A stretch of DNA of 64,000 nucleotides, taken from the NCBI RefSeq assembly GCF_014635305.1, contig NZ_BMCS01000001.1:124001-188000 (forward strand). Direction: 5' to 3'. Positions 36,536 to 62,999 of the stretch are shown piece by piece. Within the stretch, counting starts at the first letter, position 1. Every line of letters starts with the position of its first letter. The notes under the pieces are model-generated. The model made no database searches and was not told the DNA's origin. It saw only the letters and a list, made by a program, of their open reading frames with translations. The DNA comes from Williamsia phyllosphaerae. GTDB lineage: Bacteria > Actinomycetota > Actinomycetes > Mycobacteriales > Mycobacteriaceae. Both the position numbers and the translations under genes were made by a program.

Positions 36536-37294
36536 GTGACCGGCACACTCGCCGACCTCCCCGACGAGGGATACGTCTTCCGGACCTCGTGGCCGCTGTC
36601 CAGCGGTGACATCGATCGGTACGAGAAGCTCAGCGTCGACGGCATGGCCCGCTACCTCCAGGAGTGCGGCGCCCAACACCTGGTGGACTGCGGTGCGTTC
36701 GAGACGCACAAGTTCTGGATCGTGCGGCGCACCGTCATCGACGTGATCCGGCCGATCGAGTGGCCCGACACCGTCCACCTCTCACGCTGGTGCGCGGGCA
36801 TCTCCCCGCGGTGGTGCAACATGCGCGTCCGGATGACCAGCGACGGTGTCGACGGACGCGAGGGCGGTCTCATCGAGACCGAGGGGTTCTGGATCAACAT
36901 GAACATGGAGACCGGTGCGCCGTCGCGTCTCGAGGACAAGTTCTTCGAACTCCTCGCAACCACCACCGACGAACGGCGCCTCCGGTGGAAGGCCTGGTTG
37001 AACGACCCGGTGGATGCGCAGACCGAGCAGCCGTTCCCACTGCGCCTCGGGGACACCGACCGACTCGACCACGTCAACAACGCGGTCTACCTCCAGGCCA
37101 TGCGCGAGGTGTTCCCCCAGTTGGCCGACGTGATCGACAACCCGTACCGCCTGATCATCGAGTACAACAAGCCGATCACCTACGGCGAGGACGTGCGCAT
37201 CGCGACCGCCCCCACCGACGGCGGGATCCTGGTGTGGATGACCGTCGACGGCGAAGCCCGCACCCACGCCTCGATCACCGCGCTGCCCCGCTGA
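36536..37294 (+). CDS. Acyl-ACP thioesterase, copy 2
   Basis: A paralogue of the preceding gene, 252 residues if started at GTG 36536. GGAG lies 6 bp before that GTG, and MTGTLADLPDEGYVF then aligns with the start of copy 1; an ATG at 36524, overlapping the previous stop, would add four residues. Conserved blocks match copy 1 (FWIVRRTVIDV, NMNMETG, DTDRLDHVNNAVYLQAMRE). The two products could form a heterodimer or have different chain-length preferences; unknown. Confidence 0.87.
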   Translation: MTGTLADLPDEGYVFRTSWPLSSGDIDRYEKLSVDGMARYLQECGAQHLVDCGAFETHKFWIVRRTVIDVIRPIEWPDTVHLSRWCAGISPRWCNMRVRMTSDGVDGREGGLIETEGFWINMNMETGAPSRLEDKFFELLATTTDERRLRWKAWLNDPVDAQTEQPFPLRLGDTDRLDHVNNAVYLQAMREVFPQLADVIDNPYRLIIEYNKPITYGEDVRIATAPTDGGILVWMTVDGEARTHASITALPR

Positions 37295-44594: not shown

Positions 44595-46259
<1,665 letters not shown>

Positions 46260-46330
46260 TCATGGCCGGATTCGGTGCCCGCGACGGACGACCGGGGTGT
46301 CAGTGAAGACCCGATCTCACCGGTCCGACC

Positions 46331-46391
46331 TGGCACTCACGGTTCGAGAGTGCCAACTGCCTTTTTAGCACTCGGGTGGGGTGAGTGCAAG
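46331..46391 (-). promoter_or_regulatory. groL promoter with two CIRCE elements
   Basis: On the minus strand, TTGCAC (46390-46385) and TAAAAA (46367-46362) are 17 bp apart and make a good vegetative promoter. CIRCE 1 covers 46365-46391 (TTAGCACTC, N9, GAGTGCAAG), enclosing the promoter hexamers. CIRCE 2 at 46331-46354 (TGGCACTC, N9, GAGTGCCA) has perfect 8-bp arms and lies just downstream of the expected start. HrcA binding there would block initiation and early transcription. Confidence 0.9.
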
Positions 46392-46462
46392 GTCGGCGGG
46401 GCCTGCTTCGCAGTCCGCGAATCGTCGTCAAACCAGGTCATTACCGTGGCTACCGTTGTCCG

Positions 46463-47353
46463 ATGACATCCTCAGAGCGTCCATTCCGGTTCGGCGTCAA
46501 CCTTCGCACCGTCGATGATCGGCGGAGCTGGCTCGACGGTGCGCGACGAGTCGAAGAGCTCGGCTACGACATGCTTCTGGTGCCCGACCACCTGGGATTC
46601 CCGAGCCCGTTCCCCGCGCTGGTGGCCGCCGCCGGAGTCACCGACCACCTCCGGCTGGGCACGTGCGTTCTCAACGCCGGCTTCTACAACCCGACCATCC
46701 TGGCGCGCGATGTCGCCACCGCAGACGTCTCGACAGGCGGCCGAATCGAGTTGGGGCTCGGCACCGGATACGTCCGGGCCGAGTTCGAGACGGCCGGGTT
46801 GCCGTTCGAGTCGGCGGGACAGCGCGTCGCACACCTGCGCACCACCGTCGAGACCGTCTACGACCTCTTCGACGACGAGTCCCACGCCCCGAGACCCACC
46901 CAGTCGCACGTCCCGCTGTTCCTGGCCGGCAATGGCGACAAGATGCTCCGTCTCGCTGCCGAGCGCGCCGACATCATCGGGTTCACCGGCGCGAGCACCG
47001 ACCGCGACGGGACGATGTCGCTGAACTCCCCCGCCGACCTGGGGTCTCGGGTGCAGTTCGCGCGCGATGCGGCGGGGGACCGGGCCGACTCCATCGAGTG
47101 GAACCTGCTGGTCCAGCGCGTCGTGATCACAGACGATCATGAACAGATCACCGCAGAACTACACGAGCAGTTCGCCCCGGAACTCACGCCTGCGGAGTTC
47201 GCAGAACACCCCACGATCCTGGTCGGGACAGTCGAGCAGATCGCAGCGAAGCTGAACGAACTGCGGGAGCGGACCGGGATCAGCTACATCACCGTCAGTG
47301 AGCCGGACCTCGCCATCTTCGCGCCGGTCATCGAGCTACTGCGCAGCTGCTGA
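46463..47353 (+). CDS. LLM-class F420-dependent oxidoreductase
   Basis: A 296-residue luciferase-like TIM-barrel protein starting FRFGVNLRTVDDRRSWLDGAR, typical of the TIGR03621 (MSMEG_2516-like) F420 family. Other motifs: LVPDHLG, LRLGTCVLNAGFYNPTILARD and GRIELGLGTGY. Substrate unknown. ATG 46463 lies in the region divergent from groL. The final codons, TGC TGA, lie in the left 77-bp palindrome (47347-47423), so the element supplies the stop. Confidence 0.87.
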   Translation: MTSSERPFRFGVNLRTVDDRRSWLDGARRVEELGYDMLLVPDHLGFPSPFPALVAAAGVTDHLRLGTCVLNAGFYNPTILARDVATADVSTGGRIELGLGTGYVRAEFETAGLPFESAGQRVAHLRTTVETVYDLFDDESHAPRPTQSHVPLFLAGNGDKMLRLAAERADIIGFTGASTDRDGTMSLNSPADLGSRVQFARDAAGDRADSIEWNLLVQRVVITDDHEQITAELHEQFAPELTPAEFAEHPTILVGTVEQIAAKLNELRERTGISYITVSEPDLAIFAPVIELLRSC

Positions 47354-47423
47354 AATCCTGCTCTGAGCGCCCCGGCACGACGTATACGACCGCGCCGTAC
47401 CGCTACGGGCCGGATCTCAGCAG
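47347..47423. repeat. 77-bp palindromic element, left copy
   Basis: Arms CTGCTGAAATCC (47347-47358) and GGATCTCAGCAG (47412-47423) are complementary with one mismatch, extendable by AG/CT outside (47345-47425). It is 56/77 identical (my hand count, no gaps) to the right copy at 48374-48450. It contains the stop codon of the LLM gene, and the DUF559-type ORF's first ATG follows 4 bp after it. Confidence 0.8.
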
Positions 47424-47426
47424 CTC

Positions 47427-48380
47427 ATGCATTGTCCCCAGTTCGTGTCGCATGCACCGACTCTCGATCGCCTCCACCGAACCGTGGCCATCAGACCGGA
47501 CACCCCCGCGACACTCGACCACGTGACCGACCTCGACATCCTCCTCCGGGCCTGCCTCGGCGTGGTGTCCCGCCCGCAGTTGCTGAGCGCGGGTCTCTCG
47601 GACGCGGACATCAGACGGCTCGTTCGACAGGGATCACTCCGGCGGATCAGGACCGGCTGGTACGCCGCTTCATCCGCCGACCAGATGGTCGTCGAGGCGG
47701 TACGCGAAGGCGGAGTCCTGACGTGTCTGTCAGCGCTTCGTCGGCACGGCGGGTGGGTCCCCGAGCACCCGCACGCCCTGCACCTCCGGCCAATGGTTCG
47801 CGGAAACAGCGTGCGAGCCTCGCAACCATGTAGAACATTCGGCCCGACGCCGACCGCGGTTGGCGCGGTGGACGACGTCGTGACCGCGCTTCGCCATGCC
47901 GCGCGATCCCTCGACGCGGAGGACTTCATCGTCGTGAGCGACTCCGCACTCAACCTGAAGCTCGCGACATTCGACGAACTGTCATCAGCCTTGTCGACCG
48001 CGCCGGCGCGGGTACGCGCTCTTCTCGACAGATGCGACGGGCAGGCACAATCCGGCACCGAGACGATGGTTCGACTGCGGCTCCGCGCGAAGAACATCGG
48101 CGTCTCGACGCAGCACCATGTCCCCGGAGTCGGGCACGTCGACCTCCTCGTCGGCAACCGCCTGGTCGTCGAGGTCGACAGCAAGGCGCACCACACCGGC
48201 GTCGAGCGCTATGAGTCGGACCGGACCCGCGACCGGCTACTGACTCAGTTGGGGTACCTACCGATTCGGTTCACCTACCGGCAGGTCGTCCACGACTGGC
48301 ACGCCTGCGAACACACTGTCATCGACCTGGTCCGTCGCGGCGACCATCGACGCCGCCCGCACGGTGTCCGTGACTGCTGA
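47427..48380 (+). CDS. DUF559 (Vsr-like) nuclease-domain protein with AbiEi-like N-terminus
   Basis: A protein of up to 317 residues. An N-terminal winged-helix segment (VVSRPQLLSAGLSDADIRRLVRQGSLRRIRTGWYA, about 46-80) resembles AbiEi antitoxin/DUF4095-type domains. The C-terminal part resembles the DUF559/Vsr PD-(D/E)XK fold: HVDLLVGNRLVVEVDSKAHH, then YESDRTRDRLLTQLGYLPIRFTYRQV. ATG 47427 is just after the left palindrome; a GTG at 47523 would start at MTDLDILLRACLG and is perhaps more typical. Its stop lies inside the right palindrome, so the gene fills the interval between two related elements. Function unknown; such genes are often multicopy in Mycobacteriales. Confidence 0.78.
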   Translation: MHCPQFVSHAPTLDRLHRTVAIRPDTPATLDHVTDLDILLRACLGVVSRPQLLSAGLSDADIRRLVRQGSLRRIRTGWYAASSADQMVVEAVREGGVLTCLSALRRHGGWVPEHPHALHLRPMVRGNSVRASQPCRTFGPTPTAVGAVDDVVTALRHAARSLDAEDFIVVSDSALNLKLATFDELSSALSTAPARVRALLDRCDGQAQSGTETMVRLRLRAKNIGVSTQHHVPGVGHVDLLVGNRLVVEVDSKAHHTGVERYESDRTRDRLLTQLGYLPIRFTYRQVVHDWHACEHTVIDLVRRGDHRRRPHGVRDC

Positions 48381-48450
48381 GATCCAGCACGGAGCGCGCC
48401 GGCACCGTGTATGCATCGATGCCGACCCGCTCAGCGCGGGATTTCAGCAG
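48374..48450. repeat. 77-bp palindromic element, right copy
   Basis: Arms CTGCTGAGATCC (48374-48385) and GGATTTCAGCAG (48439-48450) are complementary with one mismatch. Same length and orientation as the left copy at 47347-47423. It provides the TGC TGA end of the DUF559 gene and lies 2 bp from the stop of the convergent GNAT gene, so it could also act as a bidirectional terminator. Confidence 0.8.
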
Positions 48451-48452
48451 GC

Positions 48453-48815
48453 TCAGCCGGCGTGCTCGCGTAGGTACCGCATGACGTGGACGTCGGGCTG
48501 ATCGACGATGTCGGCGACGTCATCGTGCTTGCCGACGTAGGCGGCGAACAGCGGACACACCGGGACGACCCGACGGCCAGCGGCGCGGGTGGCGTCGATC
48601 GCCCCGCGTACGAGGATCGTGCCGAGGCCACGACCGCCGTAGGCCTCGTCGACCTCGGTGTGGAAAAAGATCCGTTGAGCGCCGGTCTCGGCACCGTCAC
48701 GGTCGCGGTAAAGCGCGAACCCGACCGTGCCCTCCGGATCGAGCGCGATCTCGAAGCGCTGCAGTTCCGGGTTGTCGGTGACGGTGGTCTCGGCGCCGGT
48801 CTTGTCGGTGGTCAT
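48453..48815 (-). CDS. GNAT N-acetyltransferase (GCN5-related, YidJ-like)
   Basis: A 120-residue small acetyltransferase of the COG2388 type: FALYRDRDGAETGAQRIFFHTEVDEAYGGRGLGTILVRGAIDATRAAG contains the acetyl-CoA-binding GGRGLG segment (about residues 62-67), followed by VVPVCPLFAAYVGKH. The substrate is unknown. ATG 48815 overlaps the stop of the upstream pirin gene (TGATG), so the two are coupled. Confidence 0.87.
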   Translation of the reverse strand: MTTDKTGAETTVTDNPELQRFEIALDPEGTVGFALYRDRDGAETGAQRIFFHTEVDEAYGGRGLGTILVRGAIDATRAAGRRVVPVCPLFAAYVGKHDDVADIVDQPDVHVMRYLREHAG

Positions 48816-49819
48816 CAGCTGTCCTGTCGGTGATCGGTCATCCGGGCGCGCGGTGCGGGGTTGGAACGTGGCCGCAGAACGGTGTTCGGCAGGGTGGGCG
48901 CCGGGATCCGGTCGTGCGGACCGGTGTACCCCTGCACCGATCCGAACCTCTCGGCGTGGGCCTCCCACTGCTCGCGATAGGCGGCGATCTCCTCGTGGGT
49001 GCGTCCGACGAAGTTCCACCACATGATGATCTCCTCGTCGAACGGCTCGCCACCGAGCAGCAGACACCGCGCCGGGACGGACCCCGCATTCGTGATCGTC
49101 ACCTGCGACGCCCCGACACCGACGTAGGCGAGATCGCCGTTGGCCAGGTCGGTGTCGGAGACCCGGAGCTCACCCTGGTCGCTGAGAACACCGTGCTCGA
49201 AGTCCGGGGACACGTCGAGCGAGATGGTGGCGTGCGGGTCGATGACGATCTCCGCCCCGAGCAGCGGGGTGTACGTGGTGACGGGTGATCGCTCGCCCGC
49301 CAGCTCGCCGATGAACACCCGCAGCACCGCGCCGTCGACCGCGACAGAGCCGGGAGCGTGGTGTTGGAAACCGCGCTCGGAGTGCCGCGCCGACTCCGGC
49401 AGCGCCACCCACAGCTGTGCGCCGTGCAGGACCGTCGTGTCCGGGGTGGAGACCTCCGAGTGACTGATGCCCGCACCCGCGGACATCAGGTTGAGCTCGC
49501 CAGGCCGGACCATCGCACGCACCCCGGCGCTGTCGCGGTGTTCGACCTCGCCGCTGAACAGCCAGCTCACGGTCTGCAATCCGGTGTGCGGATGTGGCGC
49601 GACATCCATGCCTGCGCTGCGCGTGACGTCCTCGGGACCGTAGTGGTCGACGAAGCACCAGGCCCCGATCAGCGATCGCTGTCGCTGCGGCAGGGTGCGG
49701 CGGACCAGCATGGCGCGGGGCCCGCCGAGCGGTACCTCGCGCGCCGTGAGCACCTCCACGCCCGTGGTCGGGGAACCGACGCACTCCTGCTCCACCGGGT
49801 GTTGCTCGAGATTGCTCAT
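48815..49819 (-). CDS. Pirin family protein
   Basis: A 334-residue bicupin. The metal-binding N-terminal cupin has DVAPHPHTGLQTVSWLF, GEVEHRDSAG and ISHSEVS, giving the three histidines and one glutamate of pirins; some bacterial pirins have quercetin 2,3-dioxygenase activity. The C-terminal cupin ends with EEIIMWWNFVGRTHEEI, a pirin hallmark. ATG 49819 gives MSNLEQHP; sequence upstream overlaps the divergent gene's promoter. Coupled to the GNAT gene. Confidence 0.9.
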   Translation of the reverse strand: MSNLEQHPVEQECVGSPTTGVEVLTAREVPLGGPRAMLVRRTLPQRQRSLIGAWCFVDHYGPEDVTRSAGMDVAPHPHTGLQTVSWLFSGEVEHRDSAGVRAMVRPGELNLMSAGAGISHSEVSTPDTTVLHGAQLWVALPESARHSERGFQHHAPGSVAVDGAVLRVFIGELAGERSPVTTYTPLLGAEIVIDPHATISLDVSPDFEHGVLSDQGELRVSDTDLANGDLAYVGVGASQVTITNAGSVPARCLLLGGEPFDEEIIMWWNFVGRTHEEIAAYREQWEAHAERFGSVQGYTGPHDRIPAPTLPNTVLRPRSNPAPRARMTDHRQDS

Positions 49820-49922
49820 CCGTCGGGCCGCCTTCGCCTGTGAAGCGTCGTCTATCTTGATGTGTGCCAGAACAATACGCCTGCGCGAGTATTCCCGACG
49901 CGCTCTTCCGAGAGGGATGACC

Positions 49923-50378
49923 GTGACCGGTTCGCACATCTACATCGACAAGCAGTCCCCCTCCGCGTACCGCGCGCTCGGCGGTGTCGCGACGGCGGTG
50001 GCCGACGTGGCGCGCGACGCCGAGCTGCCCCGCGTCCTCGTCGAGCTGATCAACCTGCGCGTCTCCCAGATCAACGGATGTGCGTTCTGTCTCGAGCTGC
50101 ATTCGCGCCGTGCGATCGCGGCGGGCGAGACCGTGCAGCGCATCGCGACGCTGCCCGCGTGGCGCGACACCGAGTTGTTCGACGCCACCGAGCGCGCCGC
50201 ACTGCGTCTCGCCGAGATCTGCACCGACCTGCCGTCGCACGATCTGCAGGAGATCGACTACGAGCGTGCCCGCGAAAACCTCACCGACGACCAGATCTCG
50301 GCGGTCATCTGGGTCGCCATCGCGATCAACGCGTTCAACCGGGTGTCGATCCTCAGCCGACACCCCGTCCGGCAGTGA
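49923..50378 (+). CDS. AhpD-like carboxymuconolactone decarboxylase family protein
   Basis: A 151-residue helical protein with the AhpD motif CxxC followed by His (INGCAFCLELHSRRA, about residues 45-59), so alkylhydroperoxidase-type redox activity is plausible. GTG 49923 is preferred because GAGAGGG lies 6 bp upstream; ATG 49917 would place it too close. Divergent from the pirin gene (103 bp). Its 3' end overlaps the convergent monooxygenase gene by 26 bp. Confidence 0.88.
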   Translation: MTGSHIYIDKQSPSAYRALGGVATAVADVARDAELPRVLVELINLRVSQINGCAFCLELHSRRAIAAGETVQRIATLPAWRDTELFDATERAALRLAEICTDLPSHDLQEIDYERARENLTDDQISAVIWVAIAINAFNRVSILSRHPVRQ

Positions 50379-62924: not shown

Positions 62925-62999
62925 GTCCACAAACCACACCGATGGGCGTCACGAGCTGCAATGCGCACTCAACGAGGCCGTGCGGTGTGGTTTGTGGAC
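62925..62999. repeat. 75-bp palindrome with 17-bp perfect arms
   Basis: GTCCACAAACCACACCG (62925-62941) and CGGTGTGGTTTGTGGAC (62983-62999) are perfectly complementary, around a 41-nt spacer. It lies between convergent genes, so bidirectional termination is possible, but the arm length is unusual for a terminator. Unrelated in sequence to the 77-bp elements near 47-48 kb, yet similar in length. Could be a palindromic repeat element. Confidence 0.75.

Follow-up and report, generated by a model that had tools for sequence, protein, structure and literature searches.

Nuclease genes related to homing endonucleases in Actinobacteria often lie between two copies of a gene-specific palindrome that is also dispersed in the same genome

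The window analysed here is a 64,000 bp stretch of the Williamsia phyllosphaerae genome (assembly GCF_014635305.1, contig NZ_BMCS01000001.1, positions 124,001 to 188,000), and it contains a gene for an AbiEi-like/DUF559 (REase_MTES_1575) nuclease enclosed by two long imperfect palindromes. The nuclease gene (47427..48380, + strand) has 317 codons counted from this ATG, and a later start is possible as the AbiEi_4 match opens only at residue 44. The upstream palindrome P1 (47347..47423) and the downstream palindrome P2 (48374..48450), neither of which is assigned a strand, are 77 bp each and lie exactly where an earlier note on this DNA had placed them; its count of 56 identical positions of 77 in an ungapped comparison is reproduced. 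Both palindromes open with CTGCTGA, the TGA of which is the stop codon of the preceding gene: in P1 it closes a luciferase-like monooxygenase (LLM) gene (46385..47353, + strand) at 47351-47353, and in P2 the nuclease gene itself at 48378-48380. P2 ends 2 bp short of the stop codon of a convergent GNAT acetyltransferase gene (48453..48815, - strand). Folded as single strands, P1 and P2 reach -37.3 and -43.4 kcal/mol, respectively. The same note had described the two as having the same orientation, which is doubtful: the ungapped identity is higher on the same strand (56/77) than on the opposite one (53/77), but the sole gapped alignment reported is inverted, with 78% identity over all 77 positions, and orientation is of little meaning as both are near-palindromes. 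No intrinsic terminator with a T run is called at the palindromes in the region 46000-50000.

The arrangement extends well beyond this locus, and actinobacterial nuclease genes related to homing endonucleases are often found between two copies of a palindrome that is specific to the gene and also dispersed in that genome. The window protein has matches to the AbiEi_4 winged helix (residues 44-80), to REase_MTES_1575 (213-298, below that model's curated cut-off) and to DUF559 (242-295), the function of which is given as unknown in its Pfam entry; PHROGs and NCBIfam contain no family for it, and PADLOC reports AbiEi models only. In an AlphaFold model with a mean predicted local distance difference test (pLDDT) of 68.5, the blocks from residue 211 onwards score 80-92, with the exceptions of residues 251-260 (54) and the tail (48), and the catalytic domain is matched by the folds of I-Bth0305I (Z 12.2, root-mean-square deviation [rmsd] 2.6 over 96 residues), NGO0050 (Z 11.9) and Vsr (Z 10.4). 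The N-terminus matches AbiEi with a Z of 8.0, a likeness that is loose because the rmsd is 12.8. Six residues (E212, D239, E249, D251, H256 and D265) are invariant in all 96 of the proteins compared, and we take these to be the active site residues by analogy with Vsr/EDxHD enzymes. In the protein, an AbiEi-like N-terminus is combined with a Vsr/I-Bth0305I-type nuclease domain. Further fold matches, most at lower Z than the Vsr group, include TnsA and Holliday junction resolvases, as well as Toxoplasma mitochondrial ribosome proteins and the RAP module of human FASTKD4 (model mdd5e8c2081a7). Genes of this DUF559/AbiEi-like kind are common, being present in 87 of 151 genomes of the family and 120 of 296 of the class.

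Sharing of a repeat between the two flanks was scored at 96 DUF559 loci: the six of this genome, one in an Acidipropionibacterium metagenome-assembled genome (MAG), 29 of the 30 loci first fetched (the thirtieth, L041, is the window gene again and was left out), and 60 further listed places. Ninety-five belong to the GTDB family and one lies outside it, and the set includes the broken genes L007, L008 and L055 (in-frame stop). At each locus the 250 bp upstream of the matched region were aligned with a 200-bp stretch that includes the stop codon and continues past it, and a score of at least 20 was used as the threshold. The two flanks of the same gene reach this score at 71 of the 96 loci, as compared with 57 of 8590 cross-gene pairs in which the proteins are less than 60% identical; the median scores are 27.8 and 11.1, and at 73/96 loci no such cross pair formed with the same upstream flank scores as high as the own pair. 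Similar flanks, which the earlier note suggested looking for at other DUF559 genes, are a common feature. Hairpins of 60-112 nt above a set score are found upstream at 45, downstream at 40, and on both sides at 26 of the 96 loci; the same scan of 47 other window genes finds two upstream and one downstream, the latter being P1 itself after the LLM gene. Among larger taxonomic distances, in a class-level set (L156-L181) of which 24 of 26 loci were scored, with L169 and L174 dropped as repeats of L125 and L126, the own flank is the best of 120 at 8 of 18 loci outside the family and 1 of 6 inside.

These comparisons bear on a simple alternative, namely that the palindromes are ordinary bidirectional terminators, long intergenic hairpins that the nuclease gene merely shares. 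Only one of the 47 other window genes (crude gene calls) has flanks scoring at least 20, the DUF559 gene not being among the high scorers of this control, so flanks of other genes are not alike in the way that such a reading calls for. A chance pairing of two terminators was considered separately and is ruled out by the cross-pair test (57/8590) together with the window controls (1/47). The single control gene above the threshold (36652-37080, - strand) has a flank score of 23.7 and no hairpin is called there.

The palindromes differ from gene to gene. Besides the window gene there are five DUF559 matches in its own genome, of which L006 and the pseudogene L008 have palindromes of 69-79 nt on both sides, L007 has one of this size on the downstream side alone, the divergent L009 has 45-nt palindromes on both sides, and L005 has weak ones only; where a paralog has both palindromes, the sequence is common to its two flanks and different from that of the other genes. 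The share of pairs of flanks from different genes that score at least 20 grows with the identity of the proteins, from at most 0.4% below 50% identity to 3% at 50-60, 10% at 60-70, 38% at 70-80, 62% at 80-90 and 50% at 90-100 (28 ordered pairs). L009 and its relative L104 (in genome G007), which have 90% identical proteins, share one common palindrome, and L122, L123 and L124 (in G004, G005 and G002), with 53-64% identity to L009, each show a different outer stem that recurs on both of their flanks; in these L009-type genes the outer stems differ around a similar inner stem. Likewise L006, L042 and L069 (91-95% identical) retain one outer stem, of which the upstream copy at L042 is reduced to arm remnants. 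At the locus in G007 that corresponds to the window (L071), the order LLM gene, palindrome, DUF559 gene is kept, and identities to the window genome (G000) are 99% for groEL2, 93% for the GNAT protein (encoded 3.3 kb away in G007), 80% for the LLM protein and 66% for the nuclease. Its upstream palindrome has a different outer stem and its downstream palindrome is weak (-28.5 kcal/mol); as the flanks of this locus score only 13.2, we make no case for its two sides having changed in concert. Nuclease genes are broken or partial at L007 and L008 in the own genome and at L014, L055, L272 and L281 in relatives; a palindrome still adjoins L007, L008, L014, L055 and L281, and none is found at L272.

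A DNA search of the own genome with the window palindromes finds a third copy, and further copies in the genome and its relatives, the lack of which the earlier note would have read as a sign of unrelated terminators, prove to be numerous. A covariance model built from four copies (R1) has between one and nine matches per genome in eight genomes of the genus with both strands counted, and most are exactly 77 nt; its strand preferences are uninformative on the orientation of P1 and P2 because it was built with P1 reversed. Two further models describe type-B (R3) and type-C (R2) palindromes, and places were counted by hand as distinct places, with type A taken as R1 places after removal of those better explained by R3. 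The own genome has 19 type-B, 8 type-C and 4 type-A places, approximately 31 in all, of which 23 are away from any DUF559 gene. Type B has 19 places in G000, 15 in G004, 14 in G003, 9 in G002, 8 in G007, 6 in G005, 5 weak ones in G001 and none in G006; type C has 9 in G007, 8 each in G000 and G006, 7 in G004, 6 in G005, 5 in G001, 1 weak one in G003 and none in G002; and type A has 4 each in G000, G004 and G003, 3 in G007, 2 in G005, 1 in G001 and none in G002, a dubious R1 match in G006 (94 nt, 27.7 bits) being left out. Matches to R1 also lead to nuclease genes: at four loci fetched with this model (L014, L016, L030 and L037) a DUF559 match ends 1-11 nt from the palindrome, and the Acidipropionibacterium MAG locus, fetched by its protein alone, has an R1 match (39.8 bits) approximately 140-180 bp ahead of the conserved portion of the gene.

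In a tree of 34 nuclease proteins, from which two G003 and one G005 DUF559 matches weaker than the listed ones are absent, clade A (support 92/98) is represented in G000, G003, G004, G005 and G007, clade B (100/99) in G000, G002, G003, G004 and G007, and clade C (97/99) in G000, G001, G004, G005, G006 and G007; sister lineages of clade B occur in G005, G002 and G003, and in G001 and G006. In each of the six genomes that have a clade-C nuclease there are 5-9 places of type C, versus 1 and 0 in the remaining two. Because the R2 model derives solely from G001, G006 and G007, a fair test is provided by G000, G004, G005, G003 and G002, and here there are 8, 7 and 6 places in G000, G004 and G005, where clade C is present, versus 1 and 0 in G003 and G002, where it was not found. 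From the distribution of clades and the place counts together, the palindrome families are therefore rich where the cognate nuclease clade occurs and scarce elsewhere, and this tracking of nuclease clade and genome by palindrome sequence is hard to reconcile with ordinary terminators. Genome specificity is also seen farther afield: when 12 palindromes of other genera were searched against 12 genomes, 106 of 107 distinct places among the matches listed are in the home genome, with 2 to 33 places per palindrome (weaker matches are not in the list, and opposite strands were merged by hand), and three genomes of one genus (G102, G117 and G164) have no palindromes in common among the matches listed. 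Members of the L087 family are clustered by two or three approximately 240-285 bp apart at L282 (G164:C53:202400-203500) and L284 (G164:C23:31000-31700), like clusters of repetitive extragenic palindromes (REPs).

The solo copies have a preferred location in the own genome, where a called gene 3' end is within 25 nt of 17 of the 23, and several span the whole gap between convergent genes. This is what terminators would look like; in the genomes G102 and G008, however, a called gene end lies that close to no more than 6 of 17 solos (crude gene calls). The same location is relevant to a second alternative, a self-marking or regulatory system in which the nuclease would bind the palindromes, as inverted repeats, by its AbiEi-like winged helix without spreading them, and the scattered copies would be its regulon or protected self sites. 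In its favour, the profile match and, more loosely, the fold liken the N-terminus to AbiEi; a gene 3' end is nonetheless the wrong place for a promoter operator, and binding alone makes no dozens of genome-specific copies.

Pairing within the palindromes was examined in 32 distinct type-B copies. Watson-Crick pairs are formed at 72% of symmetric positions, as against 21-30% in slid pairings, and the value is 63% when the partner is taken from another copy. Copies are 77 long, with most of positions 3-16 and 30-36 pairing well and positions 17-29 at 41-56% except for position 27. Such a constant length, together with a middle zone that pairs loosely, would be as compatible with a double-stranded site whose arms are at fixed spacing as with a hairpin, and the well-paired outer arms and centre suit a protein-binding site. 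G-T pairs (6.2%) are no commoner than A-C mismatches (7.0%), and therefore nothing speaks in favour of RNA, which is again compatible with binding sites on DNA; an apparent G-T excess in the flanking hairpins was not used because the scanner rewards G-T. An RNA element was rejected on the absence of this excess and on an Rfam scan of window positions 47200-48600, in which all matches are far below gathering scores. Taking these points with the location and copy number of the solos, we regard binding sites without spreading as an unlikely explanation, although of the alternatives it is the one with most to recommend it.

For eight solo sites of the own genome, the corresponding positions were looked up in seven relatives. 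Five of the sites are empty in one or more relatives; the remaining three either hold a palindrome in the relatives seen or give no information there. One slot (L196) has type-B palindromes in G000, G004 and G007 and strong hairpins in G005 (L251), G001 (L252), G003 (L258) and G006 (L247), and because the hairpins of these latter relatives are unrelated in sequence, hairpins seem to be favoured at this slot irrespective of their family. This, too, is what would be expected of terminators, which we nonetheless consider the least probable explanation in view of the control genes, the tracking of nuclease clades and the solos of G102 and G008. In G002 the same slot (L248) has a tandem 22-bp repeat, TTTCGGCACGGTCGACGCCCTA, in place of a hairpin.

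The interval between groEL2 and the GNAT gene is approximately 270 bp in G001 and G006, with no nuclease gene, no LLM gene and a single palindrome. As one model, the earlier note had the nuclease gene inserting at a palindrome at the end of the LLM gene, and held that a single palindrome where the gene is absent would support this and that gene-less sites without any palindrome would speak against it. A single palindrome is indeed present at both gene-less sites, but it belongs to another family and there is no LLM gene beside it: among the 96 loci the flanks of L046 and L047 are the first and second best matches for both, and these are clade-C nuclease genes elsewhere in G001 and G006. An insertion of one gene into one palindrome is therefore not shown.

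The same sites are pertinent to a third alternative, a homing-type mobile gene, in which the nuclease would cut a solo palindrome and the unit of palindrome, gene and palindrome would be copied in by repair. The nearest fold is that of a homing endonuclease, and G001 and G006 have one palindrome without a gene where G000 and G005 have gene and palindrome; the lone palindrome is, however, of a different family, genes are few and palindromes many, and some genes are at the same place in several species, as with the LLM-nuclease order in G000 and G007 and the stretch before L006 and L016. Plasmid matches, moreover, are few and chromosomal-looking. Homing of the whole unit is thus improbable, a little less so than terminators and rather more so than binding sites.

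Other vehicles of mobility were also considered. A Y1 transposase of the type encoded by REP-associated tyrosine transposase (RAYT) genes (PF01797) has no match in any of the eight genus genomes, with the control positive in 5 of 14, and was rejected as the mobiliser. A phage or plasmid element was rejected as well, since matches comprise one phage record (30% identity) and four plasmid records, three of them from Tsukamurella. The plasmid-labelled Tsukamurella records with DUF559-type matches have genes such as pheA that look chromosomal, and the plasmid labels of Tsukamurella tyrosinosolvens NZ_LR134468.1, NZ_LR134466.1 and NZ_LR134454.1 are perhaps on mislabelled chromosomal pieces.

We propose that the gene and its two palindromes are probably a unit of a REPtron-like repeat-nuclease system that uses an unrelated enzyme with a winged helix and a Vsr/EDxHD-type domain. 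The palindrome families must have been copied at some time, and the most economical mechanism that we infer is that the nuclease acts on its palindrome and in this way spreads it or makes its copies uniform. The nuclease would recognise the outer arms of its own palindrome, perhaps via the winged-helix region, and would cut or nick it; through this, palindrome copies would come to occupy further sites or replace what was there, frequently at the 3' ends of genes, where a hairpin may do no harm or may serve as a terminator. The nearest substrates of the nuclease would be the flanking pair, which may stay alike because the same spreading process converts them. The earlier note had likened the locus to a REP-RAYT unit with a PD-(D/E)XK-type protein, and this likeness is well supported far beyond the window by flank sharing, dispersal and co-occurrence; overall, its observation of a gene between two palindromes is confirmed and its interpretation partly supported.

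Several observations weigh against such a spreading system. A quarter of the loci (25/96) have no shared flank at a score of 20, including five in the genus, among them L007, L039, L042 and L071 (13.2), with orthologs of the window gene among these five; the flanks of the Acidipropionibacterium MAG locus (L038) share no repeat, scoring only 11.0; the own flank is not first at 15 of the 24 class-level loci; and even at 90-100% protein identity only 50% of the 28 ordered pairs share flanks at the threshold. L274 (G001:C3:235975-238784), with a protein 52% identical to that of L009, has nearly the arms of L009 (GTAGCAGTTCGTGTCG). R2 and R3 were built partly from genomes in which they were counted, and weak type-B palindromes (5 places, best E-value 4e-7) occur in G001, which holds a sister-lineage nuclease only. 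At least two empty solo sites retain arm remnants by eye (in G007 for L033 and L226), and loss by deletion therefore fits there. No gain or movement of a palindrome was caught among the eight solo sites in the seven relatives, and no target duplication is seen by eye at the five aligned absent sites, on which ground insertion with target duplication was rejected. Lastly, protein and palindrome are linked here by sequence comparison.

REPtrons consist of an enzyme gene flanked by its palindromes, which are also scattered in the genome, and are said not to transpose as a unit (PMC6006769). The system described here is similar: each palindrome type goes with a single enzyme gene that has a copy on either side (at this locus and at 71 of the 96 loci), and more copies are dispersed in the same genome. 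The enzyme, in contrast, is a winged-helix protein with a Vsr-like nuclease domain and not an HUH-Y1 transposase, the window protein matching AbiEi_4, DUF559 and MTES_1575; because it differs in fold and chemistry, the system is by descent not a REPtron. With lengths of 70-90 bp for most palindromes and 45 bp in the L009 clade, they exceed the 20-40 bp given for REPs (PMC3733652), and a family has 2-33 copies among the matches listed.

Membership of the EDxHD/Vsr superfamily is indicated by the Vsr-like predicted fold and the conserved acidic and His residues, with their catalytic role assigned by analogy. I-Bth0305I and Vsr share this fold and these residues, but the AbiEi-like N-terminus is a difference, as is the location of the gene between two full palindromes and not inside an intron or phage gene. 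AbiEi antitoxins of type IV toxin-antitoxin systems resemble the N-terminal winged-helix region; here a C-terminal nuclease domain is added, and the neighbours at this locus are the LLM and GNAT genes, with no adjoining AbiEii nucleotidyltransferase toxin. Integron attC sites are likewise imperfect palindromes directly after a stop codon, with the difference that here the same palindrome is on both sides of one gene and no cassette array is seen at this locus.

In the listed titles and abstract openings of the open-access literature searched, no palindromes flanking DUF559 genes are described. Since we found no known Vsr/EDxHD-type nuclease with its own dispersed palindrome, this pairing is rated as new, whereas the way of working, REPtron-like, is known. 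On balance we lean, with slightly less assurance than for the unit itself, towards an undescribed selfish or domesticated repeat system of Actinobacteria in which EDxHD/Vsr enzymes multiply a cognate palindrome and enzyme and arms diversify together, a REPtron independent of HUH transposases. Dispersed cognate palindromes would provide a candidate substrate for the widespread DUF559/AbiEi-like genes. Palindromic repeats for which no RAYT is found would, conversely, gain a candidate enzyme, and the many co-varying pairs of enzyme and palindrome form a natural data set from which specificity might be decoded. Should REP-like repeats also arise by a non-HUH route, this would be relevant to the CGTC-type REPs, which are described as seemingly without a dedicated transposase and as flanking no RAYT or IS200-type gene (PMC3733652).

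One of the dispersed type-C palindromes, TCCACAAAC...GTTTGTGGA, is in the window itself (62925..62999, no strand), 8 bp past the stop codon of a gene that we call isochorismatase-like from a reading of the sequence, without a family search. The clade-C nuclease gene of the same genome is L005, at G000:C1:1855464-1856258.

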